Source: Lachnospiraceae bacterium (lineage in GTDB: Bacteria > Bacillota > Clostridia > Lachnospirales > Lachnospiraceae). Taken from it: a DNA stretch of 48,567 nucleotides. The DNA lies in NCBI GenBank assembly GCA_017441265.1, contig JAFRYE010000076.1, positions 1-48,567 of the forward strand, read 5' to 3'. This document shows, one piece after another, positions 1,175 through 48,423 of the stretch (its first letter is position 1; every line of letters begins with the position of its first letter). The position numbers and the translations under genes are program-made. A model generated the notes under the pieces. It made no database searches and was not told the DNA's origin. It saw nothing but the letters and a program-made list of their open reading frames with translations.

Positions 1175-1229
1175 AGGATGTTACCTCCTTGTTAAACTGT
1201 ACTCGCGCATTTTTCGCGTCACTTTCTGC

Positions 1230-1258
1230 ATTATACACAGGTCAATGGGGCTTGTCAA
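1230..1258 (-). promoter_or_regulatory. promoter of rplM-rpsI
   Basis: Perfect sigma-A type promoter: TTGACA (complement of 1253-1258), 17-base spacer, TATAAT (complement of 1230-1235). The predicted start lies near 1223, about 50 bases before the rplM start codon. Confidence 0.92.
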
Positions 1259-1344
1259 CAATTATCTTTTGTTTGTTTAGTTCCGAAAGGATATTTTCTC
1301 GTAAAATGATTGACATTATGCCGTTTTGCTTGCGAATAATATAA

Positions 1345-2088
1345 TTACTCCCCGTCGTAGCTGATCCGAACAAGCTGCAATCCTTGCGGCGGCGCCGTCG
1401 GCCCTGCTTTCGTGCGGTCCCCCGACTCGATGATCTCTGCCATGGACTCGGCGGGAATCGCGCCGCGCCCCATCTCGATCAGCGTTCCGGCCAGGATCCG
1501 CACCATATTGTACAAAAAGGCATTTCCCTCAACGCCGATGACGATCTCCTGACCGTCGCGGTAAACCTCGCACTTGGTGATCGTCCGGATGCGGGTCGGA
1601 GTCTGCGCCCCGGCGCTGCAAAATGCCGAATAGTCATGCGTCCCCGTAAACTGCTCCGCCCCGCGCTGCATGGCGTCGACATCCAGCGCACCGCGAACGC
1701 CGCAGACAAAGCGGCAACGCAGCGGATTTACGATCGGATCTTCCGTGATCCGGTACTCATAGCGTTTACTGTGCGCGGAAAATCTCGGATGAAACTCTTC
1801 CGACGCCTCCCACGACTCCGTCACGCGGATATCGTCCGGCAGAAACGTATTCAGAGCCCGCGCCCACCGCTCCGGAGGGATCGGGCATTCCGTGTCAAAT
1901 ACGGCAACATTTCCTAGGGCATGAACACCGGCATCCGTGCGGCTCGCTCCGACAGTCTGCACCTCCTCACCGCTCAGGCGGCGAATAGCGTTGCGAAGCG
2001 TCCCCTCGACGGTCACGGCATTTTCCTGCGCCTGCCAGCCGGAATAGGCTGTTCCGTCATATGCGATTGTCAATGCGATCCGTCTCAT
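1345..2088 (-). CDS. truA: tRNA pseudouridine(38-40) synthase TruA
   Basis: Converts uridines 38-40 of the tRNA anticodon stem-loop to pseudouridine. The protein (247 aa) begins MRRIALTIAYDG, typical of TruA; the catalytic aspartate is D52 in the GASRTDAGVHA motif, followed by the RYEYRI and DYSAFCSAG blocks of the family. I chose the ATG at 2088 rather than a longer upstream frame because homology starts there and GGAGG lies four bases before it. It begins 23 bases after the ecfT stop, in the conserved Firmicute order ecfA-ecfT-truA-rplM-rpsI. Confidence 0.96.
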   Translation of the reverse strand: MRRIALTIAYDGTAYSGWQAQENAVTVEGTLRNAIRRLSGEEVQTVGASRTDAGVHALGNVAVFDTECPIPPERWARALNTFLPDDIRVTESWEASEEFHPRFSAHSKRYEYRITEDPIVNPLRCRFVCGVRGALDVDAMQRGAEQFTGTHDYSAFCSAGAQTPTRIRTITKCEVYRDGQEIVIGVEGNAFLYNMVRILAGTLIEMGRGAIPAESMAEIIESGDRTKAGPTAPPQGLQLVRISYDGE

Positions 2089-2111
2089 ACCGCCTCCGTC
2101 TGACGTCACGA

Positions 2112-2918
2112 TCAGATATTTCGGAACATCCGAAGCAAAATGATCGTCGTCATGTAGCATGCCAAAAACAAGTATCCGAACAGGTCACGCAGTCCGTACC
2201 GCAGGGGCTTCATCTTCGTGCGCCCCTTGCCGCCGTGGTAGCAGCGCGCCTCCATCGCCGTCGCCAGGTCAAACGCACGCCTAAACGACGAGATCAGCAG
2301 CGGGATCAGGATCGGCACCATCGCCTTCGCCCGGCGGATCAGTCCGCCGCTTTCCATGTCCGCGCCGCGCGCCATCTGCGCTTTGGAGATTCTCTGCGCC
2401 TCCTCCGCCAGGATCGGGATAAACCGAAGCGCGATCGACATCATCATTGCCAGCTCGTGCACCGGAAAATGAATCACCCGAAGCGGCGACATCAACCGCT
2501 CCAAACCGTCCGTCAGGCTGTTCGGAGTCGTCGTGTACGTCATGATGGAGGTTCCGAAAACCAGCAACGCAAGCCGGATTCCCATGAAGAATCCGCGCTG
2601 AATTCCTTCCTTTGTGAGTTTCAAAAACTTCCACTGCCACAGCACTTCGCCGTCCGCGAGAAAGAAGTTGCAGATCATCGTGAACACGAGGATGAACAGG
2701 ATCGGTTTCAATCCCCGCAACAGATATCGGAACGGGACTTTCGACAGTATCAGGATGCCCGCAAACACGGTTCCTACCACGATAAAGCCGGAAAATGTCC
2801 GAAACAGAAACAAGCTCACGATGTACAAAAGCGTTCCGACGATCTTCGTTCTCGGATCCAGTCTGTGGATAATGGAATCCACCGGATAGTACTGTCCGAT
2901 CGTGACATTCTTAAGCAT
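2112..2918 (-). CDS. ecfT: ECF transporter transmembrane subunit EcfT
   Basis: Membrane scaffold of energy-coupling-factor transporters: it joins the two EcfA ATPases to exchangeable substrate-binding S components for vitamins and metals. The protein (268 aa) has about five to six hydrophobic segments (roughly residues 25-60, 70-90, 107-130, 150-175, 200-215, 245-262). The two coupling-helix motifs that dock in the ATPases are seen as ARG (183-185) and ARC (224-226). GGAGG lies seven bases before the ATG. A 20-bp palindrome (2950-2969) separates it from the upstream ATPase gene. No S component is encoded nearby, as expected for a shared group II module. Confidence 0.95.
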   Translation of the reverse strand: MLKNVTIGQYYPVDSIIHRLDPRTKIVGTLLYIVSLFLFRTFSGFIVVGTVFAGILILSKVPFRYLLRGLKPILFILVFTMICNFFLADGEVLWQWKFLKLTKEGIQRGFFMGIRLALLVFGTSIMTYTTTPNSLTDGLERLMSPLRVIHFPVHELAMMMSIALRFIPILAEEAQRISKAQMARGADMESGGLIRRAKAMVPILIPLLISSFRRAFDLATAMEARCYHGGKGRTKMKPLRYGLRDLFGYLFLACYMTTIILLRMFRNI

Positions 2919-2949
2919 CCCGATACCTCCTTTCCCGAATTGTATTCAA

Positions 2950-2969
2950 CGGAAAATGATCATTTTCCG
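2950..2969. repeat. perfect 20-bp palindrome of two CGGAAAATG motifs
   Basis: Two head-to-head copies of the abundant motif CGGAAAATG (2950-2958 and its inverse 2961-2969) meet at the central AT to give a perfect palindrome. It sits in the 58-base gap between the fused ecfA stop and the ecfT start. There is no T-run, so it is not a classical terminator. Confidence 0.9.
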
Positions 2970-2976
2970 AAACAGT

Positions 2977-4737
2977 CTACTTCACACATGCCGCCAGGAT
3001 CTCCGCAGCTTCCTCCGGAATGATCGCGTCGCTCGGCGGAACGATTCCGTCGGCGGCGAGAATCTGCATAACCTGCGTGACCTGCGGTACTTCCAGTCCG
3101 ATGTCCGTGAGCTCCTCACGGTGGCGGAATACTTCCCGCGGCGGTGCCGCAAACCGGATCTGCCCGTCGTTGATCACGATCAGCCGGTCGGCGTACCGCG
3201 CCACATCCTCCATGCGGTGCGAAACCAAGATGACCGTCATTCCGGTCTCCCTGCGGATCCTGTCGATTTCCGCCAGGATCTCGTCGCGTCCGGCCGGATC
3301 CAGCCCCGCCGTGGGCTCGTCAAGGACAAGCACCTGCGGCTTCATCGCCAGCACGCCGGCAATCGCAACACGGCGCTTCTGGCCGCCCGATAACTCCAAC
3401 GGAGACGCCTGCCACCGGCTCTCGTCGACGCCGACTAAGCGAAGCGCCCATGCGGCGCGCTCTTTCGCTTCCTCTTCGGTAAGGCCCTGGTTCCGCGGCC
3501 CGAAACACACATCCCGCAGGATCGTTGTCTCAAACAGCTGGTGGTCCGGATACTGGAATACCAGCCCCACATTGCTGCGAAGTTTCCGGCGGTCATAACC
3601 TTCGCCGAAAATGTCCTCGCCGTCAAACAAAACCGTGCCCGAGCTCGCCTGCTCGAGACCGTTCAGCATCTGGATCAGCGTGGATTTGCCGGAGCCTGTG
3701 TGCCCGATCAATCCGATGTACTCGCCCCGGAAAATGTCGAGGTTCACCTTGTCGACCGCCACCGTCCGGTATGCGGTCTTCTCGCCGTACACGTAGCTCA
3801 CATCCCGCAGCGAAAGGATCGGCTCGTCGTTGCGCTCCGAGGGTTTTTCGGAGAGTGCCGGGGCAGGGTCATTTTCCGACGAAACACCTGCGAGCTTGCG
3901 GTATTCCTCCGCAAATTCCTCAGGCGTCAACACCGAGGCCGGCATCGGGATCCCGCGGTTGGCGAGCATCAGAGCCAATTCGGTCACCTGAGGCACCTCG
4001 AGGCGATATTGGCGCAGTTCCTCCGAGCGGGCAAAGATCTCCCGCGGGGTTCCCTGCATGACAATGCGTCCGGCGTTCATGACAAACACACGGTCCGCAT
4101 TGATGACTTCCTCCATGTAGTGCGTGATCAGGATGACGGTGATCCCCTTCTCTTTATTGAGACACACCAAAGTCTCCAAGACATCCTTTCTGCCGCTCGG
4201 ATCAAGCATTGCCGTAGGCTCGTCGAGCAGGATGCACTTGGGTTGCATCGCCAGGATGCCGGCGATGGCTACGCGCTGTTTCTGACCGCCGGAGAGCTTG
4301 TTCGGCGAACTCTCACGGTATTTTTCCATACCGACCGCCGCCAGACTCTGAGCGACTCTTGTTAGGATCTCCTCCGTCGGAACGCCGAGGTTCTCGGGGC
4401 CGAAGCCGACGTCCTCCTCGACGACGGAAGCGACAATCTGATTGTCGGGGTTTTGGAACACCATGCCGGCGTTTCTGCGGATTTCCCACAGGAAATCGTC
4501 GTCCGCCGTGTCCATGTTGCACGTGAGAACACGTCCCTCCGAGGGGAGCAGCAGGGCGTTGATGTGTTTTGCGAGGGTGGATTTTCCGGAACCGTTCGCT
4601 CCGAGAACAACAATAAACTGACCCTCTTCCACCTCAAGATTGACATGGTCGAGCGCCCTCTTAGCCTCAGCGGCATTGCCCTCTTCGTCTCTGGTCACGT
4701 AATCATGAACAAGATTTTCCGTAACAACCGGTAACAT
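2977..4737 (-). CDS. ecfA: fused ECF transporter ATPase EcfA1-EcfA2
   Basis: One 586-aa protein holding both ATPases of the energy-coupling-factor module, which power uptake of micronutrients through EcfT and S components. Each half is a full ABC ATPase: Walker A near 46-54 (GANGSGKST) and 345-353 (GHTGSGKST), LSGGQ signatures near 148-152 and 449-453, Walker B LLDEPTA / LVLDEPTA near 170 and 472, and H-loop histidines near 206 and 507. An acidic, proline-containing linker (about 280-306) joins them. Each half also has the EcfA C-terminal LEVPQVT segment. Usually these are two genes of about 280 codons each; here the frame is continuous. The ATG at 4737 is preceded by GGAGG five bases away; a GTG one codon earlier is too close to it. 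Confidence 0.95.
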   Translation of the reverse strand: MLPVVTENLVHDYVTRDEEGNAAEAKRALDHVNLEVEEGQFIVVLGANGSGKSTLAKHINALLLPSEGRVLTCNMDTADDDFLWEIRRNAGMVFQNPDNQIVASVVEEDVGFGPENLGVPTEEILTRVAQSLAAVGMEKYRESSPNKLSGGQKQRVAIAGILAMQPKCILLDEPTAMLDPSGRKDVLETLVCLNKEKGITVILITHYMEEVINADRVFVMNAGRIVMQGTPREIFARSEELRQYRLEVPQVTELALMLANRGIPMPASVLTPEEFAEEYRKLAGVSSENDPAPALSEKPSERNDEPILSLRDVSYVYGEKTAYRTVAVDKVNLDIFRGEYIGLIGHTGSGKSTLIQMLNGLEQASSGTVLFDGEDIFGEGYDRRKLRSNVGLVFQYPDHQLFETTILRDVCFGPRNQGLTEEEAKERAAWALRLVGVDESRWQASPLELSGGQKRRVAIAGVLAMKPQVLVLDEPTAGLDPAGRDEILAEIDRIRRETGMTVILVSHRMEDVARYADRLIVINDGQIRFAAPPREVFRHREELTDIGLEVPQVTQVMQILAADGIVPPSDAIIPEEAAEILAACVK

Positions 4738-5375: not shown

Positions 5376-5436
5376 ATTATTCCTCCACTCTGCCGCATGG
5401 CTGCGGCGATTCTAATTGCCCGGACGGAAAATGATC

Positions 5437-6440: not shown

Positions 6441-7043
6441 TTACTTGGAGTACAACTCGACGATAAGCACCTCATTGACCGGAACGTCAATCTGATCTCT
6501 CGTAGGATACTCCTTCACGGTACCGGAAAGGTTCTCCGTGTCTGCCTCAAGCCAAGCGGGAACAGCTCTGCCGTTGTTAGCTTCAAGGATGTCCTTGAAT
6601 CTCTGACCGGCCTTGTTTTTTGCCTTCTCGCTGACGGTGATCACATCGCCCGGCTTAACATTGTAAGACGGGATATTCACGCATTTGCCGTTCACAAGGA
6701 TGTGCTTGTGATCAACGATCTGTCTCGCCTCTACACGGGTACGTGCGAATCCGAGACGGAAAATGATATTGTCCAATCTGGTCTCGAGGAGAATCATCAG
6801 GTTCTCACCCGTTGTGCCGAGCTTCATCTTCTTAGCCTTCTCGAAGTCGTTACGGAACGGCTTCTCCAGAACGCCGTAGATGAACTTAGCCTTCTGCTTC
6901 TCGCGAAGCTGCATGCCGTACTCACTTACCTTCTTGCCGGCGTGCAGACTATGGCGATTGGACTTCTTGTCGATGCCGAGATACGCGGGCTCAATGCCGA
7001 GCGATCTGCATCTCTTTAATACAGGACCCATTTCTCTAGCCAT
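6441..7043 (-). CDS. rpsD: 30S ribosomal protein S4
   Basis: Primary 16S rRNA-binding protein that starts 30S body assembly and forms part of the mRNA entry channel. The protein (200 aa) has the RCRSLG start block, the [18 protein letters not shown] block and an S4 RNA-binding fold at about 92-152 ([14 protein letters not shown]). It lacks the zinc CxxC pairs of C+ forms. In Bacillus and in E. coli S4 is the autoregulator of its operon; here it lies third after rpsM and rpsK, and the long structured leader before rpsM is the likely site for such control. Confidence 0.98.
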
Positions 7044-8215: not shown

Positions 8216-8329
8216 TCAGCCTTGTCTCTGCTTGTGCTTGGGATTCTCACAAATGATCATGATGTTTCCCTTGCGCTTGATTACTTTGCATTTTTCGCAA
8301 ATGGGCTTTACTGAAGATCTTACTTTCAT
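8216..8329 (-). CDS. rpmJ: 50S ribosomal protein L36, zinc form
   Basis: Smallest large-subunit protein (37 aa), stabilising 23S rRNA in the region of the factor-binding site. It has the zinc ligands C11, C14, C27 and H32 of the C+ form. The start ATG at 8329 is preceded by GGAG about ten bases away. It normally follows infA directly; here a HAD phosphatase gene is inserted and rpmJ has gained or kept its own promoter (8369-8396), which starts the rpmJ-rpsM-rpsK-rpsD-rpoA-rplQ unit. Confidence 0.97.
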
Positions 8330-8368: not shown

Positions 8369-8396
8369 ATTATAACATGTCTTTCGTAAAATGCAA
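8369..8396 (-). promoter_or_regulatory. promoter of rpmJ and the alpha operon
   Basis: TTGCAT (complement of 8391-8396), 16-base spacer, perfect TATAAT (complement of 8369-8374). Predicted transcription start about 8362, some 33 bases before rpmJ. The stretch just upstream is very A-rich on the coding strand, resembling an UP element. Confidence 0.85.
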
Positions 8397-8496
8397 CCCT
8401 CTTTTTTTCGATTTTTTTGCTTTTTTTTCAAGGGTTTTCCCGCATTTTCCGCAGTTTCACAATCCCCGTACCGCACAGGCCGCTCCGGGGTCATTT

Positions 8497-9616: not shown

Positions 9617-9674
9617 TCGGTTTTCTGCGCCGTTTGGGCATTTTTCGTTCCTGCCGGTACTCTCTCCGAACGAC

Positions 9675-10815: not shown

Positions 10816-11457
10816 TTACTCAAACAGCGCCGTGATGCTTGCAAACACATCATTGACATCCTGCGTTCCGTCGACGGTGCGAAGGATGCCCTCACCCTTG
10901 TAGTAATCAATCAACGGCTGCGTCTGCTCATGGTAAACCGTGAGTCTCTTCTTGACCGTCTCCGGCAGATCATCCTTGCGGATGCTCAGCTCGCCGCCGC
11001 AAAGATCGCATACACCCGACTTCTGCGGAGGATTGAACAGAATGTGATACGTGCCGCCGCAATTGATGCAGGCTCTGCGGCCGCCCATTCTCTCGATGAT
11101 ATTCTCATCCGGTACATCGACGTCGATCGCAAAATCAAGCGCATCATTTTGCGCCTTAAGGCTTGCGGTAAGCGCCTCTGCCTGCGCGATCGTGCGCGGG
11201 AAACCGTCCAGCACATAACCGTTCTCGCAGTCGGCCTGCGCGAAACGATCCATGATCAAAGCGAGTGTCAACTCGTCCGGAACCAGCAATCCCTGGTCCA
11301 TGTACTGTTTTGCCTTCTCTCCGAGCTCCGTGCCGTTTTTGATGTTTGCGCGGAAAATGTCACCCGTGGAGATGTGAGGAATGCCGTATTTCGCAGCGAT
11401 CATTTTCGCCTGCGTGCCCTTGCCGGCTCCGGGGGCACCCAACATAACGATTTTCAT
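10816..11457 (-). CDS. adk: adenylate kinase, zinc-lid type
   Basis: Converts ATP and AMP to two ADP (213 aa). P-loop GAPGAGKGT at 7-15; DGFPRT block at 84-89; the LID domain carries four cysteines, C130, C133, C150 and C153, which bind zinc as in Bacillus and many Gram-positive enzymes. It follows secY after a 57-base gap that holds an 8-bp hairpin (11478-11485/11496-11503). GGAGG precedes the ATG. Confidence 0.97.
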
Positions 11458-11514: not shown

Positions 11515-12843
11515 TTAGTCATTCAGGAATCCCTTGTAATGACGTACCAGCAACTGCGATTCAATCTGCTTCATAGTCTCAAGGATAACACCGACAACGA
11601 TGATCAGACCTGTACCGGTAAAGCCGAGGCTGACTCCGAATACTCCACCGAAGATCATCGGAATCAACGACACGATTGCCAAACCGACGGCACCGATAAA
11701 CACGATGTGGTTGAGCACGCCGACAAGATAATCGGTCGTAGGCTTACCGGGACGGATACCGGGAATGAAACCGCCGTCCTTCTTCATGTTATTGGATACC
11801 TCAATCGGGTTGAAGGTAATGCTTGTGTAGAAATATGCGAAGAACAGGATCATGACTACGTAGAATACGGCGCCGATCGTGTAAGCAAATTCCTTCAAGC
11901 TGCCGAACTTAAACCAGTGATTCTGGTTGAACGCGTACAGGATCTTCGGCCACAAACCCTTGCTGGTCGACTCCGTAACGCCGCACAAACTCGAGATGAT
12001 GGTCGGGAACTGGTAGATGGACATCGCAAAGATGACCGGGATAACGCCGGCGGTGTTAACCTTCAACGGGATAGCCGACGAGTTTCCGCCTACCATTCTT
12101 CTGCCCTGCATTTTACGCGAATACTGAACCGCAATCTTGCGCTCCGCATCCTGAAGCAAAACGACCAGAATCAGAGTCGCTGCAATTACCAATACGCAAA
12201 CGATGACTTTCAGGGAAGCCGTAACGTTGTTCGAAGCATTTCCGACAACGGTCTGGAACATGCTCTTGAATGCCTGCGGCATGGAAGAAACGATGTTGAT
12301 CAACAGGATGATGGAGATACCGTTACCTACACCATGCTCCGTGATGTTCTCGCCCAGCCACATAAGGAATGCCGAACCTGCTGTGAAAGCGATCGTTACG
12401 ATGATGATCGTCCAGATGGACGTATCTACCAGTCTTCCCGCTCTGGAAAAACCGATTGCGATCGCGCCGCCCTCGATCATGGCGAGCAGAACAGTCAGAT
12501 AACGGGAGTACTCCGCAATCTTCTTGCGGCCGGTCTCGCCGTCTTTCTGCAGCTCGGCCAAAGCCGGGATTGCGATCGTCAGCAATTGCATAATAATGGA
12601 CGAAGTGATATACGGTGATACATTCAGCGCAAAGATAGACATCTTCTCAAGAGAACCGCCGGTCAAAGCTCCGAGGAAACCGAGGTTCTCAGCCATTTGC
12701 TTAATCCAATTTGTTGCATCGGCAGTATATCCGGGAACCGGAACCATGCAACCCAAACGGATCACGATCAGACAAATAAACGTGAACAACAGTTTGCGAC
12801 GAATGTCTTTTACTTTAAATGCGTTGATGAACATTGTAAGCAT
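11515..12843 (-). CDS. secY: preprotein translocase subunit SecY
   Basis: Channel subunit of the Sec translocon in the cytoplasmic membrane (442 aa). About ten hydrophobic segments are apparent, starting with the KLLFTFICLIVIRLG segment near residue 17; the loop GIRPGKPTTDYL and the C-terminal block GFTGTGLIIVVGV are typical. Its ATG lies one base after the rplO TGA and its Shine-Dalgarno sequence GAGGTGATC overlaps the end of rplO, so translation of the two is coupled. This is the standard end of the spc operon. Confidence 0.98.
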   Translation of the reverse strand: MLTMFINAFKVKDIRRKLLFTFICLIVIRLGCMVPVPGYTADATNWIKQMAENLGFLGALTGGSLEKMSIFALNVSPYITSSIIMQLLTIAIPALAELQKDGETGRKKIAEYSRYLTVLLAMIEGGAIAIGFSRAGRLVDTSIWTIIIVTIAFTAGSAFLMWLGENITEHGVGNGISIILLINIVSSMPQAFKSMFQTVVGNASNNVTASLKVIVCVLVIAATLILVVLLQDAERKIAVQYSRKMQGRRMVGGNSSAIPLKVNTAGVIPVIFAMSIYQFPTIISSLCGVTESTSKGLWPKILYAFNQNHWFKFGSLKEFAYTIGAVFYVVMILFFAYFYTSITFNPIEVSNNMKKDGGFIPGIRPGKPTTDYLVGVLNHIVFIGAVGLAIVSLIPMIFGGVFGVSLGFTGTGLIIVVGVILETMKQIESQLLVRHYKGFLND

Positions 12844-15612: not shown

Positions 15613-16152
15613 TTACTTGGCAAACGGCATGCCAAACAGTCTCAACAATTCACGGGCTTCCTCATCGGTCTTAGCCGTCGTTACGAAAATGACGTCCATA
15701 CCGCGAACCTTGTCGACCTTGTCATACTCAATCTCGGGGAAAATCAGCTGCTCCTTGATACCTACGGCATAGTTGCCGCGGCCGTCAAATGCATTGGGGT
15801 TAACGCCGCGGAAGTCGCGCACGCGAGGCAATGCGAGGTTGATCAGACGATCCGCGAACTCATACATCTTGTCGCCGCGAAGCGTAACCTTGCAACCGAT
15901 TGCCAAACCCTCTCTGATCTTGAAGTTAGCAATAGACTTCTTAGCTTTCGTGATGACGGGCTTCTGTCCGGAAATGATCTCCATATCCTTGGCAGCGGAC
16001 TCGAGCGCCTTGGCATTTTCCTTAGCCTCGCCGACACCCATGTTGATCACGATCTTATCGAGCTTCGGGATCTGCATCACGTTCTTGTAGCCGAACTTCT
16101 TCTGCATGGCGTCCGCGATCTCGTTCAAGTACATTTCTTTTAATCTAGTCAC
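15613..16152 (-). CDS. rplE: 50S ribosomal protein L5
   Basis: L5 (179 aa) binds 5S rRNA and forms a bridge to S13 in the small subunit. The blocks [18 protein letters not shown] and [18 protein letters not shown] are typical. Upstream spacing to rplX is 23 bases. One copy of the CATTTTCC motif lies inside it at 16014. Confidence 0.98.
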
Positions 16153-18962: not shown

Positions 18963-19238
18963 TTATCTGGACTTCTTCTCATCCTTACCGTGTCCACGGA
19001 AGTTTCTCGTCGTAACGAACTCGCCCAGTTTGTGGCCAACCATATCCTCGGTCACGTATACCGGAACGTGCTTCTTGCCGTCATACACAGCGATCGTGTG
19101 ACCGACGAAGGAAGGGAAAATGGTCGAGCGGCGGGACCACGTCTTGATGACGCTCTTGTCGCCCTTCTCATTCATTTCGTTGACCTTGTCAAGCAGGTAC
19201 TGATCTGCGAAAGGTCCTTTCTTCAAAGAACGTGCCAT
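18963..19238 (-). CDS. rpsS: 30S ribosomal protein S19
   Basis: S19 (91 aa) in the 30S head contacts the A-site finger and complexes with S13. [12 protein letters not shown] and [22 protein letters not shown] are typical. It follows rplB by 13 bases. One GGAAAATG motif lies within it on the opposite strand at 19115. Confidence 0.98.
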
Positions 19239-20128: not shown

Positions 20129-20440
20129 TTACAGACCGGCAAAGAGCTCGATCTCAGCGCTGTCAGCGGTCAACTGTACGATCGCCTTCTTCTTCGCTGC
20201 GGTCTTGCCGGTAACGATGCCGTCCGACGTGTTGCGTCTGCGGCTCTTGCCATCAAGGTTCATCGTGTTAACCGAAGCAACCTTGGTGCCCGCGAACATC
20301 TTCTCAACAGCCTCTTTGATCTGGCTCTTCGTTGCGTCGGGGTTTACGTAAAATGCGTATTTCTTCTGTGCCATTGCGTTCATGCTCTTCTCGGTAACTA
20401 CCGGCTTGAGAATGACGTCGTAATACTTCAAATCTGCCAT
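20129..20440 (-). CDS. rplW: 50S ribosomal protein L23
   Basis: L23 (103 aa) is at the tunnel exit and is the docking site of trigger factor and the signal recognition particle. DVILKPVVTEKSM and YAFYVNPDATKSQIKEAVEKMF are typical. Its ATG shares one base with the rplD TAA (TAATG), so the two are coupled in translation. Confidence 0.98.
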   Translation of the reverse strand: MADLKYYDVILKPVVTEKSMNAMAQKKYAFYVNPDATKSQIKEAVEKMFAGTKVASVNTMNLDGKSRRRNTSDGIVTGKTAAKKKAIVQLTADSAEIELFAGL

Positions 20441-22413: not shown

Positions 22414-22456
22414 GCGGATTTTTTAAATTTTTTTCATTTTCCGAAAAAAAGGCGAA

Positions 22457-24144: not shown

Positions 24145-24186
24145 AAGCATTCCTTTCCGACCGGCATTTTTCGCCGCGCATCCTGT

Positions 24187-30178: not shown

Positions 30179-30760
30179 TTACCGGCTGACAATAACCTTG
30201 TCGATGAGGCCGTACTCCTTTGCAGCCTCAGCCGTCATCCAGTTGTCGCGATCCGTGTCCGCAGCAACCGTCTCATACGGCTTATCGCAATTCTCAGCCA
30301 GCATACGGTTGAGTTTTTCCTTCGTCTGCAAAATATGCTTTGCCGCAATCTCAATCTCCGTAGCCTGGCCCTGAGCGCCGCCGAGAGGCTGATGGATCAT
30401 GATCTCCGCGTTGGGAAGCGCATACCGCTTGCCCTTCGTGCCGCCTGCGAGCAGGAACGCACCCATACTTGCAGCCATGCCGATGCAGATTGTGGACACA
30501 TCGCACTTGATGTAGCGCATGGTGTCATAGATCGCGAGGCCGGCAGAAACCGAACCGCCGGGGCTGTTGATGTAGAGGCACACGTCCTTGCTCGGATCTT
30601 CGGACTCAAGGAACAGAAGCTGCGCCACCACCAGGCTCGCTGTCACCTCATTGACTTCTTCACCCAGGAAAATGATGCGGTCCTTCAGCAGGCGCGAGTA
30701 GATATCGTACGAACGCTCGCCGCGATTGGACTGCTCAATGACATAAGGTACTAAACTCAT
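30179..30760 (-). CDS. clpP: ClpP, proteolytic subunit
   Basis: Tetradecameric serine peptidase (193 aa). Catalytic triad S98 (GMAASMGAF), H123 (MIHQPLGG) and D172 match the canonical positions within one residue. The start [10 protein letters not shown] at 30760 is the family start and is preceded by GAGAGGG; an upstream extension in frame has no such support. A hairpin (30780-30807) lies just upstream, separating it from tig. Confidence 0.97.
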
Positions 30761-35200: not shown

Positions 35201-35275
35201 GTATCTGGCCTTCTGCCTCTCCAACTCCAATTCGAGTTCCCGAATTCTTTCCTGGTCGTTTCTACCCTCTTCCAT
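32234..35275 (-). CDS. large GGDEF-GGDEF-EAL family protein with degenerate active sites
   Basis: A 1013-residue cytosolic protein built of cyclic-di-GMP domains. N-terminal coil (1-30); PAS-like region (about 30-140); first GGDEF domain (about 150-310) with IVDDQF at 229-234 in place of GGDEF; GAF-like region (about 345-510); second PAS-like segment (520-630) with SVCQNCP (CxxC) at 562-568 and a further Cys pair near 618-621; second GGDEF domain (630-795) with SGADF at 710-714; EAL domain (about 805-1013) with ADALVRW in place of EALxR and without the DDFGTG and KxD catalytic residues. All three catalytic centres look lost, so a receptor or scaffold role is more likely than synthesis or hydrolysis. 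No membrane segment. It lies 30 bases after the DJ-1 gene, GGAGG before its ATG. Confidence 0.88.
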   Translation of the reverse strand: MEEGRNDQERIRELELELERQKARYRIISGMVQCGLWEYVIATGELVQSKRVEGVAPGDALRIPKFRETMSASGLIADDDAAAFSALCDSLENGDEAFSYDVRAYVDAKTRIWLRYEGYTVFAEDGSPVKVIGRTLNVSEEKRNENVIIRESETDPVTGLYTQASIQERLEELVRSGSENDRLALFVLDIEDFSAITGEWGHAYGDYVLEKLAKSMQSIFMDNDSLARIVDDQFVMIKNGVKGPADVYSVARAVARAASRIELKKENTLRVNLGASIFPLDGRDYSSLYRKAVVALEETKKNPASVCTMYEDALSIHQQYRPQREPEQAPKTEAQKVVAAQQSSKYGPVEKYIVNKTFDMLAGSGTGAEEVVEIFEEIGKYYKYRRIYTIQYDVKKQLAKVRYDWESEKNPYYPQFDRVIRENFRSIRERFANDRLFLSLNTAQLGIVMPDAIRDLYGNSSLFQYVIIDNDETFACICFEKAVNQNWGKEEQDVLINLSKLLAIYIERARAKEMLADELKYTHAIIENQQITSYAVIPETMELVYVGDYTGRQYPLAHSGEHCYSAIMGRSSVCQNCPVAALGEHDKVHTTETYYTKQKRWISTTASRVTGEDGERQCLVCWSDVTEFVERVRSKDALTGQLTAEKLESEAIRLISENPRGSRAFACFSFPQFHDLNEVWGYAVGNEILRVFASTVASMLRSEELLARTSGADFVMMLAYEDRERTQARVEMILQSAHTAVTRLYPDLQLNVWCGLYRFQNKEDTISAAIEKANRARKAIGSMNSIATIAVNYEAGDAEQKNSFRTFVENSMRDALTNREFKVFFQPKRDPATNKIVGADALVRWITAEGQVLEPGSFMPIFEENGFVTELDYYVHKETFRLVREWLENGVNPPVISLGSSWQYMFGADFVSRIRYLLQRYNVPADRIELIIPEGISDANMNAVMDVLAELQTIGFVVDIDSYLARCSLKTHGLDLPANYAKQYPELARKIAALEQKRLSSPMAPEDFTNLIL

Positions 35276-35928: not shown

Positions 35929-36043
35929 CCGTACAGGGAAGAAAGAAATGTCCTTTTCTTGTTTTTCCGCCGCATTTTACGACCCGGATTTACAACAGGA
36001 TGAGATTGTCCATTTTCTTCCCGAAAAACGCCGCAAAATGCGA

Positions 36044-36134: not shown

Positions 36135-37616
<1,482 letters not shown>

Positions 37617-37617: not shown

Positions 37618-37926
37618 ATGGGCGTGACCGAGCAAACCGCAAGGACGCCGCGCATTCCCTGCCGGCGCTGTCTGATCGAAGGTCTCCGCGAGGAGGAGGT
37701 GCTGTTGCGCGTCTCCGATTACATCGACGCCATCGAGCCCGACAGGCGCACGCCGGAGCCGCTCTACCAAAAGCGCCTCGCCGCCTGCGAAACATGCGAC
37801 ACTCTCTCGGGAGGCATGTGCCGCGAATGCGGCTGCTTTGTGCTCTACCGTGCGGCCATCGCCGCCAACGGCTGTCCCGGAATGACCGACCGCTGGACCG
37901 GTCTTTCGGAAAATGATTCCCCCTGA
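37618..37926 (+). CDS. small cysteine-rich protein, DUF6171-like
   Basis: A 102-residue protein with CRRCL at the start (about 15-19), then ACETCD, GMCRECGCFV and a C-terminal CPGMTDRW: paired cysteines that would bind zinc. It resembles the Firmicute family DUF6171; function unknown. The ATG lies one base after the GH51 stop and has no clear ribosome binding site of its own, so it is probably translated by ribosomes leaving the upstream gene. It ends before a strong terminator. Confidence 0.8.
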   Translation: MGVTEQTARTPRIPCRRCLIEGLREEEVLLRVSDYIDAIEPDRRTPEPLYQKRLAACETCDTLSGGMCRECGCFVLYRAAIAANGCPGMTDRWTGLSENDSP

Positions 37927-38006: not shown

Positions 38007-39377
38007 TCAGCGCCCGCGAAGCGGCACATACTCCCGCTCTTCCGAGACGCTCCTGTACGCCGGGCGAATGATCTTTCCGGCATTGATGAGTTCCTCCATC
38101 CGGTGCGCGCTCCAGCCGGCGATTCTCGCGATCGCAAAGATCGGCGTGTAGAGGTCTTCCGGAAGTCCCAGCATCTGGTATGCAAAGCCGCTGAAGAAGT
38201 CCACGTTGGCGCTGACGCCCTTGTACATCTTGCGCTCCTCGCTGATGATCTTCGGGGCTAACTCCTCAACCTTCGCATACAACGCGAACTCGTCTTCGCG
38301 CCCCTTCTCAACCGAAAGCTTCTCCACGAAACTCCGGAACAGCACGGCGCGGGGATCGGAGACGGAATAGATGGCGTGGCCGATGCCGTAGATCAATCCG
38401 GCGCGGTCAAATGCCTCCTTGTGAAGCAACGCCTTTAAGTACGTTCCGACCTCTTCGTCGTCCGTCCAGTCGTTGACTTTCTCCTTCATATCCGCAAACA
38501 TCTGCACGACCTTGCGGTTCGCACCGCCGTGTTTCGGCCCCTTCAGGGAACCGAGCGCCGCCGCGACTGCCGAGTACGTGTCCGTCCCCGAGGACGTCAC
38601 GACGTGGGTGGTAAATGTCGAATTGTTACCGCCGCCGTGCTCCGCGTGCAGCACCAGCGCCGCATCCAGAACCTTGGCCTCCAGCTCCGTATATCTGCTG
38701 TCCGCACGGAGCATATGCAGGATATTTTCCGACATCGAGAGCCCCGCCTTCGGCTTGTGTATGATCAGGTCGCCCGACTTGCTGTAATACAGATGCGCCA
38801 TATAACCGTACACCGAGATCATCGGGAACATGGAGATCAGCTGCAGACACTGCCGAAGCACGTTCGGAAGCGATGTGTCGTCCGCGTTCGTATCGTAGGA
38901 ATACAGTGTCAGGACACATTTTGCGAGCATGTTCATCATGTCCGGGCTCGGTTTTTTCATGATGACGTCGCGCACGAAACTCGAAGGCAGCGAGCGGTAT
39001 TTCGCAAGCACCTTGCAAAAACCGTCCAGCTCCTTCGGCGTCGGTAATTTTCCGAACAACAAAAGGTAGATCGTCTCTTCAAAGCAATACCGGCCGTCCG
39101 TCATTGCCCCCCGCAGAAGCTCCTCCACATTGTATCCGCGGTAGAACAGCGTTCCCTCACAGGGCACGCTCTCCCCGTCCACCGATTTAGTTGCGCGAAT
39201 CTCCGAAATCTCCGTCAGACCGGTCAACACCCCTTTGCCGTTTAGATCGCGCAAGCCTCGTTTTACATCGTAGCGCTCATACAGCGTGGGGTCGATATTA
39301 CTGTTACTACGGCACAGTTCGGAGTACTCTTCAATCTCTTTCGTGATTGCCGAGTAATCGATTTTCTTTCCTGCCAT
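38007..39377 (-). CDS. gltA: citrate synthase
   Basis: Condenses oxaloacetate and acetyl-CoA to citrate (456 aa), feeding glutamate synthesis in anaerobes with an incomplete cycle. Active-site histidines lie in HAEHGGGNNS and GIGHAIYS, and the catalytic aspartate in NVDFFSG. The N-terminal 50 residues are helical and longer than in the shortest type. The start ATG at 39377 (MAGKKID) follows GGAGGTG; the GTG seven codons earlier overlaps that site. The gene has its own promoter, divergent from tRNA-Leu. Confidence 0.95.
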   Translation of the reverse strand: MAGKKIDYSAITKEIEEYSELCRSNSNIDPTLYERYDVKRGLRDLNGKGVLTGLTEISEIRATKSVDGESVPCEGTLFYRGYNVEELLRGAMTDGRYCFEETIYLLLFGKLPTPKELDGFCKVLAKYRSLPSSFVRDVIMKKPSPDMMNMLAKCVLTLYSYDTNADDTSLPNVLRQCLQLISMFPMISVYGYMAHLYYSKSGDLIIHKPKAGLSMSENILHMLRADSRYTELEAKVLDAALVLHAEHGGGNNSTFTTHVVTSSGTDTYSAVAAALGSLKGPKHGGANRKVVQMFADMKEKVNDWTDDEEVGTYLKALLHKEAFDRAGLIYGIGHAIYSVSDPRAVLFRSFVEKLSVEKGREDEFALYAKVEELAPKIISEERKMYKGVSANVDFFSGFAYQMLGLPEDLYTPIFAIARIAGWSAHRMEELINAGKIIRPAYRSVSEEREYVPLRGR

Positions 39378-39430
39378 GGTTATTAACACCTCCTCCACAA
39401 AACCACCGAAAAATGATGAAATATGTATCT

Positions 39431-39460: not shown

Positions 39461-39495
39461 TCGGAAAATGCACCCCACCGCTCTCGGCGCGGGAA

Positions 39496-39524
39496 TTGAC
39501 ATTTTCCGCGGGTGGTGGTACAAT
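39496..39524 (+). promoter_or_regulatory. promoter of tRNA-Leu(UAG)
   Basis: TTGACA at 39496-39501, 17-base spacer, TACAAT at 39519-39524. The start is near 39531, nine bases before the tRNA. The end of the -35 is the start of an inverse CATTTTCC motif (39500-39507). Confidence 0.9.
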
Positions 39525-39539: not shown

Positions 39540-39620
39540 GCACTTGTGGTGGAATTGGCAGACACGCCGGATTTAGGTTCCGGTCCGAAAGGGTGCAGGT
39601 TCAAGTCCTGTCAGGTGCAT
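39540..39620 (+). tRNA. tRNA-Leu(UAG)
   Basis: Complete class II cloverleaf of 81 bases. Acceptor GCACTTG pairs with CAGGTGC with one G-U pair; anticodon loop TTTAGGT gives anticodon UAG; a short extra arm and the GGTTCAAGTCC T-arm are present. Discriminator A. CCA is not encoded. The last two bases belong to a CATTTTCC motif (39619-39626). Confidence 0.96.
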
Positions 39621-39662
39621 TTTCCGCTGTATAATAATATGTTTTTCACCGATTTTGCATGT

Positions 39663-41661: not shown

Positions 41662-41821
41662 AATTTCCTCCTGATCCACGATCGCGCATACTTTCATACG
41701 GCGAGCCGCAGTCCCCGAAGGAACTGCGACCCGCTGTCAAAAACTCGCATCGATTCTTCGGAAAATGACGGTCTCACCGCCACTCTCCCGCACTCATATC
41801 CCGGGAATCCCGGAGTGATAA
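41662..41821 (-). other. intergenic spacer in the SPFH cassette with hairpin
   Basis: The 160-base gap holds a hairpin (CGCAGT/ACTGCG, 41707-41728) and one GGAAAATG motif (41760-41767). I see no convincing promoter, so the two genes are probably on one transcript with a partial stop or processing site between. Confidence 0.4.
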
Positions 41822-43169: not shown

Positions 43170-43278
43170 CCTTTGCTATCATAACACAATTTCCGCAAAA
43201 CTTCACTACGATTTTTCATTTTTCGGGAATTTTTTTGTCATTTTTCGACAAGGCCGGCGCACCGGCAATGCAGGGCAC

Positions 43279-43312
43279 AAAAAAATGCGCCCCGCCGCTT
43301 TGACAGGGACGC
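43279..43312 (-). terminator. terminator of the five-tRNA cluster
   Basis: G+C-rich stem (43287-43293/43306-43312 with one G-T pair), then TTTTTTT in the minus reading (complement of 43279-43285). It follows the tRNA-Gln gene by seven bases. Confidence 0.88.
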
Positions 43313-43318
43313 AAAATG

Positions 43319-44404: not shown

Positions 44405-45010
44405 TCACACTCTCTCTTTCTCCGCAAGCCGCTCGCGCATCAGCCGAAGGGCGTTTCCCCGGTGACTGATCGCATTTTTCGCATCCGGCGACAACTCGGC
44501 GCTGGTCATCCCTTTGTCGGGTAAAAAGAAGATCGGATCGTAGCCGAATCCGTTCGGTCCGGCCGGTTCCTTCGCGATCTCCCCCTCCATGACGCCGCGC
44601 ACAACCTCCTCGCGGCCGTCCGGCCACGCGCACGCGATCGCGCACACGAACCTTGCCGTGCGCTCCGAGGGAGCCGCTTTTTGCAGCATGTCGATGATCA
44701 CGCGATTCTTGATGTCATACGACGTATCCTCGCCGAGGAACCGCGCGGAATAGATGCCGGGCATGCCGCCCAGATAGTCGACCTCCAAGCCGGAGTCGTC
44801 CGCCATTGCCATGCATCCGGCAAGTTTGCTGACCGCACGCGCCTTGATCAGCGCGTTCGCTTCAAATGTCTTGCCGTCCTCCACGATATCCGCCGAAATC
44901 CCGGCTTCCTTCATGGAAACCACATCGTAGCGATCCCCGAGGATCGCGCGGATCTCCGTCATCTTATGAGCATTGCCCGTGGCAAATATCAATCGTTCCC
45001 GTTCACTCAT
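44405..45010 (-). CDS. rdgB: XTP/dITP diphosphatase (non-canonical purine NTP pyrophosphatase)
   Basis: Removes dITP, XTP and dXTP from the nucleotide pool by pyrophosphate release (201 aa). Family motifs FATGNAHKMTEI (start), ADDSGLEVD (middle, catalytic Asp), FGYDPIFF and SHRGNAL (C-terminal) are intact. The start at 45010 follows GGAG and overlaps the upstream gene by eight bases; nine codons of in-frame extension lie inside that gene and are rejected. Pairing with yfcE is common in Clostridia. Confidence 0.96.
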   Translation of the reverse strand: MSERERLIFATGNAHKMTEIRAILGDRYDVVSMKEAGISADIVEDGKTFEANALIKARAVSKLAGCMAMADDSGLEVDYLGGMPGIYSARFLGEDTSYDIKNRVIIDMLQKAAPSERTARFVCAIACAWPDGREEVVRGVMEGEIAKEPAGPNGFGYDPIFFLPDKGMTSAELSPDAKNAISHRGNALRLMRERLAEKERV

Positions 45011-46184
45011 GGCTCTCCTTCGTCCCGGCCCCTTCACTGTCGGTCCGCCTCGGCGGCTTCGGCCCCAGGAATTGATAGAAATAGGTCTTGATCATACCGT
45101 TGTAGATCTTCCGGTTCCGGTCCGCCTTGCGTCCCAGATACCGCTCCGCATCTTCGTACGAAGTGATCAGAAACATCGACCAGGAATCCAGTCCCCGGTA
45201 CGCCTCTCCGATCTCCTTATACAACTGCGGCAGATCCTTCCGGTCTTCCAGTCTCTCGCCGTACGGCGGATTCGTGATGACAAAGCCGAACTTCTTCGGG
45301 CTCCGCAGCTCCTTCACCGCACGCACCTGCATATGAATATCGTCAAGCACTCCGGCCGCCGCAGCATTCTGCCGTGCGATCGAGATTGCGTCGCGATCGA
45401 TGTCATACCCCTGGATCTGCAGCGTCCCGTCGCGCCGGACGCCGTCCTCCGCCTCCTCCCGGGCCTTCTTCCAAAGGCTTTCCGGAAGTCTCTCCCGATA
45501 GCTCTCCGAGCGGAAGCTCCTCTTAGCCCCGGGAGCGATATTTCTCGCGATCATCGCCGCCTCGATCGGGATCGTACCGCTTCCGCAGAACGGATCCACC
45601 AGGATCCGGCTCTCATTCCACGGTGTCAGGCTGATGAGCGCCGCGGCGAGCGTCTCGCTGATCGGAGCCTTGCCGACCAGTTTGCGATAGCCGCGCTTGT
45701 GGAGCGACTCGCCGGTGATATCAATGCCGACCAGCACCGTGTCGCGGATGACGGAAACGCGGATGGGATACTCGTTGCCGGTCTCCGGGAACCAGGAGAT
45801 CCGGTACTTCTGCTTCAACCGCTCCACGATCGCCTTCTTCATGATCGACTGAATGTCCGAGGTGCTGAACAGCTTGCTTTTGACCGACGTCGCCTTCGTC
45901 ACCCAGAAACGCCCGTCCGCAGGGATCACATCCTCCCACGGGAGTCCGGCCGTGCGGTCAAACAGTTCTTCGAACGATTCCGCCGTGAACTCGCCGATCT
46001 TCCAAAGGATCCGCTCCGCGGTTCTGAGGAAAATGTTGGCTCTCGCAAAAGCGCTCTCGTCCCCGAGGAACGTCACGCGGCCGTCCTCGACCTTTGAGAT
46101 CTCGTACCCCAGGTTCCGGATTTCATTTTTCAAGACCGCCTCCAGGCCGAAGTGGCACGGGGCAACCAGCTCATACATGCTCAT
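45003..46184 (-). CDS. THUMP-domain RNA methyltransferase, RlmL/YpsC-like
   Basis: A 393-residue class I SAM-dependent methyltransferase of the RlmL N-terminal type, which methylates guanine N2 in 23S rRNA (the G2445 position in E. coli). A ferredoxin-like and THUMP domain (about 5-160) precedes the catalytic domain with DPFCGSGTIPIEAA (SAM motif, about 196) and the catalytic NPPYGER near 308. The ATG at 46184 is seven bases after AGGAG. It follows tRNA-Arg(ACG) by a terminator only, so its transcription probably comes from the tRNA promoter by read-through. Confidence 0.9.
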   Translation of the reverse strand: MSMYELVAPCHFGLEAVLKNEIRNLGYEISKVEDGRVTFLGDESAFARANIFLRTAERILWKIGEFTAESFEELFDRTAGLPWEDVIPADGRFWVTKATSVKSKLFSTSDIQSIMKKAIVERLKQKYRISWFPETGNEYPIRVSVIRDTVLVGIDITGESLHKRGYRKLVGKAPISETLAAALISLTPWNESRILVDPFCGSGTIPIEAAMIARNIAPGAKRSFRSESYRERLPESLWKKAREEAEDGVRRDGTLQIQGYDIDRDAISIARQNAAAAGVLDDIHMQVRAVKELRSPKKFGFVITNPPYGERLEDRKDLPQLYKEIGEAYRGLDSWSMFLITSYEDAERYLGRKADRNRKIYNGMIKTYFYQFLGPKPPRRTDSEGAGTKESHE

Positions 46185-46318: not shown

Positions 46319-46338
46319 ACGTCTTGACGACAAGGGCT

Positions 46339-46367: not shown

Positions 46368-46414
46368 GCACAATTTTTGTTTTTTCCGAGATTTTCCGAT
46401 ATATCTTTGACGCG

Positions 46415-46831: not shown

Positions 46832-46867
46832 ACCACACCCCCGGGAAAACCCATTGCAGAAAACACC

Positions 46868-48100
46868 TTACTCCTTCGTTCTTCCGGTTGCGAGCAGGAT
46901 CAACATCTCCGTGATCTTCTCCATGGCGTCCGCGCTGACATACTCATAGCGCGAATGAAAATTCTCGCCGCCTGTGCAGAGATTCGGGCACGGAACGCCC
47001 ATGAACGACAATCTCGCACCGTCCGTACCTCCGCGGATCGGCTGTGCGATCGGCGTGATTCCGAGATGCCGCATCGCGGCGACGGCATTTTCCACCAGGA
47101 AGTAGTTCCCCTGCTCTATTACCTCTTTCATGTTATAATAAGAATCTTTCATCGTCAAGTGCGCAATTTCCGCTCCGTAGCGCTCGTTGACGGTCTTCAC
47201 ATAGGTTTCCATGCGGCGCTTCTTCTCCTCGAAGAGCGCGCGGTCATGGTCGCGAATGATGTAGGTCACGGTCGCTGCGTCGGTCTCACTCCGAATGCCC
47301 GTGAGATGGAAAAATCCCTCATAGCCTTCCGTCGTCTCCGGCCGTTCCGAAGCCGGGATCATGGCGTCGAGCTCCAGCGCGACACGCGAGGCGTTGATCA
47401 TTTTCCCCTTCGCGCTGCCGGGATGCACGCTGCGCCCGGCAATCGTAACGGTCACTGCCGCGGCGTTGAAGCACTCGTACTCCAGCTCCCCGAGCCGGCC
47501 GCCGTCCACCGTGTAGGCATAGTCCGCGCCGAAAACTTCCGTATCGAAGTGGTCCACTCCCGCGCCGATCTCCTCATCCGGCGTGAACGCAACCGCCAAC
47601 GGTCCGTGCGGGATTTCCGGGTGTGCCAGCAGATAGTTCGCCATCGTCATGATCTCGGCGACGCCGGCCTTGTCATCCGCGCCGAGAAGCGTCGTTCCGT
47701 CCGTGACGATCAGCGACTGCCCCCGGTACATGGAAAGCTCCGGAAAATCCTTCTCCCGCAACACGTAGGAGCCGTCCTCCTGCAGCGCGATATCGCCGCC
47801 CTCGTAGCGCACGATCCGCGCCTTGACATCCGTATCGCTCACCTCCGGCGATGTGTCCATATGCGCGATGAAACCAAGACACTTCTTGCATGCGCCGCCG
47901 TCCGTCGCGGGAATCTTCGCATAGACGTAGCAATACTCCGCGTCGTAAATGACGTCGGACGCGCCCATTTTCCGAAGTTCCTCCGCGAGCACCTTCGCGA
48001 GCTCGTGCTGCTTCGCGGTGCTGGGCGACTCCTGCGACTCCTCCGAAGACTGCGTATCATACGAAACATACGTAAGAAACCGATCGACAACCTCTGACAT
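46868..48100 (-). CDS. pepT: peptidase T, tripeptide aminopeptidase
   Basis: Cytosolic dizinc M20 aminopeptidase (410 aa) acting on tripeptides. The metal-site motifs are present: GFIAHMDTSPE (His and catalytic Asp, about 78), LLGADDKAG (bridging Asp), TPDEEIG (catalytic Glu) and the C-terminal GGENFHSRYE histidine; a dimerisation lid domain lies between. The ATG at 48100 is seven bases after GGAGG; eleven codons of in-frame extension are rejected. It lies behind the tRNA-Leu(UAA) terminator, with no promoter of its own that I can see. Confidence 0.96.
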   Translation of the reverse strand: MSEVVDRFLTYVSYDTQSSEESQESPSTAKQHELAKVLAEELRKMGASDVIYDAEYCYVYAKIPATDGGACKKCLGFIAHMDTSPEVSDTDVKARIVRYEGGDIALQEDGSYVLREKDFPELSMYRGQSLIVTDGTTLLGADDKAGVAEIMTMANYLLAHPEIPHGPLAVAFTPDEEIGAGVDHFDTEVFGADYAYTVDGGRLGELEYECFNAAAVTVTIAGRSVHPGSAKGKMINASRVALELDAMIPASERPETTEGYEGFFHLTGIRSETDAATVTYIIRDHDRALFEEKKRRMETYVKTVNERYGAEIAHLTMKDSYYNMKEVIEQGNYFLVENAVAAMRHLGITPIAQPIRGGTDGARLSFMGVPCPNLCTGGENFHSRYEYVSADAMEKITEMLILLATGRTKE

Positions 48101-48119
48101 GATGAAACCTCCGCAAATC

Positions 48120-48154
48120 AAAAATAGCAGCAAACCGCCGAAGCGGTCGCTGCT
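48120..48154 (-). terminator. terminator between tRNA-Leu(UAA) and pepT
   Basis: Two-part stem (48126-48131/48149-48154 and 48134-48138/48143-48147) with loop CGAA (TTCG on the minus strand), then TATTTTTG in the minus reading. It ends seven bases before the GGAGG of pepT. Confidence 0.85.
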
Positions 48155-48170
48155 TCACTCTTCGAGTATA

Positions 48171-48256
48171 TGCCGGCGACGGGGATCGAACCCGTACGGG
48201 AGATTAAGCCTGCAGGATTTTAAGTCCTGTGTGTCTGCCAATTCCACCACGCCGAC
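48171..48256 (-). tRNA. tRNA-Leu(UAA)
   Basis: Class II cloverleaf of 86 bases: acceptor GTCGGCG/CGCCGGC with one G-U pair, anticodon stem CAGGA/TCCTG with loop CTTAAAA giving UAA, long extra arm, T-arm GGTTCGATCC, discriminator A. CCA not encoded. Confidence 0.96.
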
Positions 48257-48264
48257 ATTTATCG

Positions 48265-48294
48265 AAAAGCCTCACGCCGAAGCGTAAGGCTTTT
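48265..48294 (-). terminator. terminator between tRNA-Val and tRNA-Leu
   Basis: Long stem: AAAAGCCT/AGGCTTTT (48265-48272/48287-48294) and a further inner stem closed by TTCG on the minus strand. The T-run is the end of the stem itself. It lies inside the tRNA cluster, so it would lower expression of tRNA-Leu(UAA) and pepT. Confidence 0.75.
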
Positions 48295-48296
48295 GA

Positions 48297-48369
48297 TGGG
48301 GCCTATAGGGCTCGAACCTATGACCCTCTGCTTGTAAGGCAGATGCTCTCCCAGCTGAGCTAAGACCCC
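48297..48369 (-). tRNA. tRNA-Val(UAC)
   Basis: Acceptor GGGGTCT/AGGCCCC, anticodon stem TCTGC/GCAGA with loop CTTACAA giving UAC, T-arm GGTTCGAGCC, discriminator A. CCA not encoded. Confidence 0.96.
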
Positions 48370-48423
48370 GTTATGCAATTGCCGCTATGGAAAATGAGAT
48401 TGTTCGTCTCCCGACAATCCCAA

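Follow-up and report, generated by a model that had tools for sequence, protein, structure and literature searches.

Here we describe a short DNA motif, the octamer GGAAAATG and its form with a free third base, CGNAAAATG, which is scattered over both strands of a 48,567-bp stretch of Lachnospiraceae DNA and which probably acts as a DNA-uptake sequence. The stretch (hereafter, the window) is one contig of an assembly that totals 2,585,061 bp in 79 contigs and is 97.4% complete. The best matches to its SecY in named records come from Lachnospiraceae MAGs, many of them of ruminant origin. A preliminary description of the window had reported strong over-representation of the motif on both strands and had left uptake, recombination, nucleoid-protein binding and DNA modification open as its cause. 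The genome that holds the window is labelled G000 and its relatives carry G-numbers; genes were called throughout with a simple in-house script.

Results

The window contains 34 copies of GGAAAATG, 20 on the plus strand and 14 on the minus strand, and this octamer heads the ranking of all window 8-mers both by count and by excess. Dinucleotide shuffles of the window gave a mean of 2.05 copies and at most 5, and none of the 100 reached 34. The word CGNAAAATG occurs 38 times, against a shuffle mean of 2.64 and a largest value of 8, with G at the free position in 18 copies, A in 11, T in five and C in four; the union of the two sets comprises 54 sites. Ten of the 34 octamers are wholly intergenic by our gene calls, and intergenic DNA makes up 5,850 of the 48,567 bp. 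The preliminary description had counted 33 octamers, exact for the plus strand and one short on the minus strand (13), and its chance expectation of about 1.5 was somewhat low, which leaves its conclusion unaffected. Its remaining tallies, namely 18 octamers preceded by C, the 38 copies of CGNAAAATG with their split by base, about ten intergenic octamers and four octamers among the ribosomal genes at 7-22 kb, were reproduced by our counts.

The excess is real and extends genome-wide. In the 2.59 Mb of its own genome GGAAAATG occurs 1,684 times (881 plus, 803 minus), or about once per 1.5 kb, against 37 occurrences (21 and 16) of the same word read backwards, and CGGAAAATG occurs 1,042 times against 9 for its reversed control. 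In a 405-kb sample, 212 coding copies compare with a mean of 27.0 and a maximum of 41 in 100 within-gene synonymous shuffles, 70 intergenic copies compare with 3.4 expected, and five permuted words yield 5, 6, 15, 13 and 10 copies against 282 for GGAAAATG. A larger sample of 691 kb (27% of the genome) includes the window and is non-random, having been picked by contig number and for the pilus and competence loci; in it each of the six reading frames stands above 15 synonymous shuffles, from 14 vs 4.1 up to 128 vs 20.5. The shuffles and the reversed-word control rule out chance and base composition, and the synonymous shuffles (100 runs in 405 kb, 15 runs in 691 kb) rule out codon choice, as the preliminary description had held. 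That description had also asked whether the genome-wide count would come close to a shuffled level or be accounted for by a few codon pairs; it stands at 1,684 against 37 for the reversed word, and synonymous shuffling returns 27.0 of the 212 coding copies. Some words do exceed synonymous shuffles in coding DNA only (in G008, GGCAAATG reaches 29 vs 0.8 in frame -1), so coding excess alone can mislead. The idea that codon usage, codon pairs or mutation bias generate the motif can nevertheless be dismissed almost outright, given its presence in six frames and on both strands, its intergenic excess, its positional strictness, the scarcity of the reversed and permuted words, and the lack of any excess in 350 kb of Escherichia coli (coding 19 vs 22.3, 20 copies in total). 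Intergenic DNA of the genome is also strongly enriched in TCGGATAA/GTCGGATA/CCGTCGGA and in CAGTATAC/AGTATACT, which look like a repeat family and a promoter-like word.

The consensus in the genome of the window is CG[G>A,T,C]AAAAT[G>A,C]. On replacement of single bases of CGGAAAATG in the 691-kb sample, which holds 443 octamers, G2, A5, A6, A7 and T8 proved strict (ratios 0.5-2.2) and position 4 weakly variable (2.2 to 3.4); position 3 accepts G>A,T>C, position 9 accepts G>A,C, and C1 is favoured and dispensable. The same scan confined to intergenic DNA (84 CGGAAAATG vs 1.67) concurs: positions 3 and 9 are plainly free, and position 1 is a little. Enrichment decays from 16.6x without mismatch to 2.45x, 1.05x and 0.97x at one, two and three mismatches. 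Intergenic copies carry a T-rich left flank, with C at -1 in 85% and T at -6, -5, -3 and -2 in about half, and tend to be followed by A or C in place of G.

Most copies in the 691-kb sample (342 of 443) lie inside genes, 180 in the orientation of the gene and 162 opposite to it, and density is higher between genes (1.30/kb) than in coding DNA (0.556/kb). Over successive fifths of the gene, sense copies are even (40, 31, 31, 42, 38) and antisense copies skew to the first (47, 27, 41, 31, 16). In a strand test that omits the 13 of 443 sites lying in weak GC skew, the G-rich strand carries 236 copies (55%) and the opposite strand 194, a slight lean (p = 0.048); of coding bases, 87% belong to the G-rich strand. 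The 262 spacings in 405 kb are distributed near-exponentially and a bit more evenly (mean 1,277, standard deviation 1,104, median 959 vs 885 expected), on which ground regular spacing was rejected. A polar chromosome-segregation signal was likewise rejected, strong polarity being absent, and so were transcription terminators, given few inverted pairs and no excess in convergent gaps. Densities in G000 are alike in tandem (1.32/kb), divergent (1.50/kb) and convergent (1.18/kb) gaps, and copies in tandem gaps thin out with distance from the preceding gene (21, 16, 14, 9 and 9 by fifths). Genes below 48% GC (43 genes, 7 copies) carry 0.29/kb, 2.9x over shuffles, compared with 4.6x in genes of 48-52% GC and 9.1 to 14.0x above 52% GC. 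Base composition alone predicts the opposite of this depletion, which is compatible with exclusion of the motif from acquired genes, low GC being a rough stand-in for acquisition.

The individual window sites are as follows. Octamers preceded by C (CGG) lie on the plus strand at 2464-2471, 2790-2797, 2951-2958 (intergenic), 3729-3736, 5426-5433 (intergenic), 6758-6765, 11352-11359, 37908-37915, 39463-39470 (intergenic) and 41760-41767 (intergenic), and on the minus strand at 2961-2968 (intergenic), 3870-3877, 8443-8450 (intergenic), 22435-22442 (intergenic), 29560-29567, 39500-39507 (intergenic), 39618-39625 (intergenic) and 47966-47973; those at 2951-2958 and 2961-2968 form the left and right arms of an inverted pair with a gap of 2. 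The other octamers are at 19115-19122, 23179-23186, 25590-25597, 26036-26043, 26830-26837, 30667-30674, 34441-34448, 34979-34986, 46028-46035 and 48389-48396 (intergenic) on the plus strand, and at 2019-2026, 16014-16021, 23664-23671, 36932-36939, 47086-47093 and 47399-47406 on the minus strand. The variant CGAAAAATG is found at 39407-39415 on the plus strand and at 1208-1216, 8289-8297, 9639-9647, 24165-24173, 26701-26709, 27939-27947, 36204-36212, 43217-43225, 43239-43247 and 44473-44481 on the minus strand; CGTAAAATG at 1300-1308, 8385-8393 and 20347-20355 (plus) and at 12109-12117 and 35973-35981 (minus); and CGCAAAATG at 36032-36040 and 43310-43318 (plus) and at 11145-11153 and 38917-38925 (minus). 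By Pfam, the window encodes a 1,013-aa protein with GGDEF and EAL domains (32234-35275) and also Lon, ClpX, citrate synthase and an alpha-L-arabinofuranosidase.

Across 22 genomes of the genus, counts of GGAAAATG against the reversed word run from 221/82 (G006) up to 1,260/10 (G005) and 1,763/35 (G011); outside the genus, no ratio among 39 genomes from further genera and families of the order is higher than 4.4 (G029, 309 vs 71). In a SecY tree covering 18 of the 22 genomes (no SecY match was obtained in the other four, and G000 sits on a long branch), G006 and G018, which have the lowest counts, branch first and abundance climbs stepwise: a middle clade (449 to 863 copies) is sister to a high clade (672 to 1,763), with a support of 93/91 that falls just under the tool's star mark. 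A second SecY-like gene in the genome of the window (G000:C3:715-2010), 44% identical to the window SecY, is either an accessory SecY or contamination, the reported contamination being 4.35%. The flank differs between the two clades, with A at +10 in 63 of 122 middle-clade copies and 158 of 653 high-clade copies (Fisher p 3.7e-9, for a position chosen after inspecting the same samples); among five other flank positions -3 is weakly different (p 0.011) and four are the same.

Sites are also retained between genomes. In 122 reciprocal best pairs of orthologues drawn from partial samples of G000 and G015, 21 of 56 alignable coding sites are kept, against 3,442 of 17,940 comparable 8-mers. At sites with identical residues, 21 of 29 are kept from G000 to G015 (control, 3,314 of 9,694) and 21 of 26 in the reverse direction; of five controls matched for frame and peptide that carry another 8-mer, one is kept.

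In the middle clade, when 8-mers are ranked on coding and intergenic excess together, GGAAAATG comes first in G008 (coding 36/11.8, intergenic 35/1.8), second in G017, after the overlapping CGGAAAAT, and sixth in G004; words were also ranked in up to 40 kb of ten relatives, with genes and gaps pooled. A search for another dialect in 120 kb each of the low-copy G004, G006 and G018 gave no word near the joint enrichment of GGAAAATG in G000, the modest G018 word GCCGCAGGC reaching 8 vs 1.9 in coding and 8 vs 0.1 in intergenic DNA. An intergenic repeat of G004, AGTACCAC/GTGGTACT, has 15 copies between genes vs 0.1 expected. In G008 and G017, the coding counts of GGCAAATG and CGTATTTG are several times those of synonymous shuffles, in few frames, and the two words hardly occur between genes; being enriched in coding DNA only, they were not accepted as the same kind of signal, and their excess perhaps stems from codon-pair context or a related signal.

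Beyond the genus, one genome from each of 149 Lachnospiraceae genera was surveyed. The nonamer CGGAAAATG is at least tenfold over its reversed control in three of them: G118 (401/15), G134 (337/20) and G182 (113/11). In a 76-kb sample of G134, 40% of which was left uncalled by the gene-calling script, GGAAAATG is the top word. In G118 (genus g98) the largest total excess is that of GGGCAATG, GGTCAATG and GGCCAATG. They span several frames and both orientations (the main frames of GGNCAATG give 55/9.3, 37/2.7 and 31/3.3 against shuffles) and define a word whose outer bases are for the most part strict, whose fourth position is free and whose fifth is C or A. The resulting word CGGNCAATG occurs 1,107 times in G118, vs 49, and is tenfold in none of the other surveyed genera; we read it as a putative sister dialect sharing CGG and AATG.

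Genes for pilus-mediated transformation, from the pilus ATPases to ComEC, ComEA and DprA, were sought in the same genomes. ComEC was found in 20 of 22 genus genomes, split in two pieces in G016 and G017, and the two genomes without a match are 82% and 79% complete; ComEA-type matches occur in all 22, 21 of them over the cut-off, and DprA is present in the genome of the window, the sole genome searched for it. A full-length PilB-type ATPase is encoded in 17 of 22 genomes, with fragments in G003 and G010, and was not found in the incomplete assemblies of G013, G020 and G021; T2SSE matches are called PilB or PilT here from their length, the MshEN domain and gene order. The pilus operon of the window's genome encodes PilB with MshEN, PilT, PilC, an N-methyl pilin, a prepilin peptidase, PilM and three more N-methyl proteins, and the four proteins with the N_methyl pilin motif are candidate receptors. 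This operon is itself poor in the motif, with no copy in L145:11815-20000 (the last 8.2 kb) and none in the called genes of its continuation, L146:1-4249. Among five outside genomes searched, G118 and G134, where the motif is strongest outside the genus, have a full-length PilB adjoining a PilT-type gene, an arrangement not found in G182, G159 and G117. PilM is over the cut-off in 28 of 50 genomes, including G000, G006, G018 and G118; weak PilM matches may be actin-like relatives.

Discussion

On these data we consider it probable that the motif is a DNA-uptake sequence, a self tag of naturally competent Lachnospiraceae that would be read by the pilus machinery. Uptake is favoured because of the slight strand bias, the intergenic density, the decay with mismatches, the clade dialects and the pilus and competence genes. 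Several properties of uptake sequences (over-representation, no strong strand bias, intergenic excess, clade dialects, and a pilus with ComEC) are found here together. In all these respects the motif behaves like an uptake sequence, and it probably is one. Of the explanations that the preliminary description had left open, the data thus favour the first and disfavour Chi-type recombination, with a nucleoid protein and modification as lesser possibilities. A wider claim, which we favour by a narrow measure, is that sequence-specific, kin-selective transformation arose independently in the Gram-positive Lachnospiraceae, where it would use the word CGNAAAATG and one or more sister dialects, among them CGGNCAATG in another genus; uptake sequences would then have a third origin, and their first among monoderms.

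Abundance, strand-neutrality, intergenic excess, mismatch decay, retention of sites, build-up along lineages and dialects match descriptions of the DNA uptake sequence (DUS) of Neisseriaceae and the uptake signal sequence (USS) of Pasteurellaceae. Sections of PMC1939737 describe uptake sequences with 1,471 and 1,965 copies, a non-coding excess and no orientation bias, in which enrichment is confined to fewer than two mismatches; DUS counts and dialects are treated in parts of PMC3630211 and PMC1939737. Like the DUS, the present motif has one to two thousand copies or more in about 2 Mb, in both orientations, with a strict core, dialects by clade, an intergenic excess, a type IV pilus and ComEC. 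It differs in its unrelated sequence, its Gram-positive host and its few inverted pairs, and the likeness is one of sequence pattern and gene content.

The USS carries a flanking preference beyond its 9-bp core. With it the motif shares the 9-bp core, a preference in the flanks, the absence of orientation bias, the location of most copies in genes and the lean of antisense copies to the gene start (47 of 162 in the first fifth here); sequence, phylum and cell envelope are unrelated, and the receptor is putative in both. For Haemophilus influenzae, passages of PMC1939737 place most USS copies in genes without orientation bias, and a part of PMC2346458 describes reverse-complement copies leaning to 5' gene ends. 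Complexes of pilins with DNA have been modelled for the USS (PMC12616744). No earlier report for Lachnospiraceae, or of this word in a bacterial genome, stands among the matches listed for open PubMed Central, which is weak evidence of absence; an uptake-related paper that names Lachnospiraceae does so, in the portion concerned, for a restriction enzyme (PMC3388099).

In the mechanism that we propose, free DNA would be bound at the motif, whichever way round it lies, by a receptor on the cell surface, for which a minor type IV pilin is the likeliest candidate, and the pilus (PilB, PilT, PilC) would pull the DNA in. ComEA and ComEC would pass one strand into the cell, where DprA and RecA would recombine it. 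Fragments bearing the motif would enter more often, and alleles that carry it would displace those that do not; we infer that this preferential uptake could drive the motif to build up where sequence is free to change and to persist at existing sites, with dialects emerging as the receptor changes.

Several observations weigh against this account. The lean to the G-rich strand is slight, at p = 0.048, and inverted pairs are few, with five opposite pairs within 12 bp and one same-orientation pair among 443 copies, so that the frequent terminator-like inverted pairs of Neisseria were not encountered in that set. Divergent gaps are denser than tandem gaps in three of four genomes (3.09/1.63 per kb in G008, 4.09/0.82 in G017 and 2.49/1.40 in G015), and the convergent gaps of G008 and G017 hold no copies. 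The sister word shows no intergenic excess in G118, with 9 copies in 18.4 kb against 130 in 150 kb of coding DNA. Machinery and motif also part company: G182, with a tenfold motif and 81% complete, shows no PilB-type ATPase, G134 gave no PilM match, and G020 has 1,232 copies and yielded neither ComEC nor PilB in an assembly 82% complete. Conversely, the low-copy G006 and G018 carry ComEC, ComEA, PilB and PilT-type genes, and eight genera with a clear PilM (E 1.4e-19 or better) are without a tenfold motif. The same genes in low-copy species and PilM in motif-poor genera mean that the motif is not predictable from the machinery.

The rival that survives best, although we think it unlikely, is that the motif is bound by an abundant protein, either a chromosome organiser or a global regulator. 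Empty convergent gaps and the divergent excess suit a promoter-linked role better than uptake, the higher density between genes points the same way, and the intergenic flank TTnTTC ahead of GGAAAATG forms, as we read it, an imperfect dyad that would be dimer-like. Yet in G000 the gap types are alike and copies in tandem gaps lean away from the next start, 342 of 443 copies are in genes, and about 1,700 strict copies of 8-9 bp at near-random spacing are many for a regulator.

Less probable still is a Chi-type signal, at which AddAB acting on a double-strand break would be switched from degradation to RecA loading. The motif resembles Chi (of RecBCD and AddAB) as a short, over-represented, non-palindromic word in a genome with an AddA homologue; AddA, the subunit searched for, passes its curated cut-off in 21 of the 22 genomes of the genus, and genome-wide abundance, retention of individual sites, the lower enrichment in low-GC genes and the slight lean of 236 vs 194 to the G-rich strand would all fit. 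As a yardstick, we put 350 kb of E. coli K-12 through the same gene caller and shuffling, assigning the leading strand from what we take to be the positions of origin and terminus. Of its 83 Chi octamers 66 (80%) are leading and 17 lagging, density is 0.264/kb in coding against 0.046/kb in intergenic DNA, and coding copies are 2.6x over 20 synonymous shuffles. The motif differs on all three counts, being nearly strand-neutral (55% on the G-rich strand, p 0.048, with no leading-strand preference like that of Chi in the E. coli sample), denser between genes and, at about 8x over shuffles, far above codon expectation. Chi is disfavoured because of this comparison; moreover, the sister word of G118 leans the other way (58 on the G-rich strand vs 82), and AddA is equally present in low-copy species.

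A modification or phage-defence mark, that is, the recognition site of a methyltransferase or defence system accumulated by the chromosome, is a decidedly poor prospect: a strict, non-palindromic site of 8-9 bp that changes by clade would suit it, but the targets of restriction systems are typically rare rather than abundant in their own host. HIP1 of cyanobacteria, a palindromic and very abundant octamer whose role is debated, is comparable in abundance, and the motif described here is not palindromic.

Conclusions

If the motif is indeed an uptake sequence, it would be the first self tag known outside the Gram-negative families of Neisseria and Haemophilus, and this third, Gram-positive case would mean that such systems arise repeatedly and would offer a monoderm system for finding the receptor. 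A clade with low, middle and high copy numbers lets the origin and spread of uptake bias be tested. These bacteria would then exchange genes preferentially with their kin, and the motif could aid the laboratory genetics of a little-cultured group.

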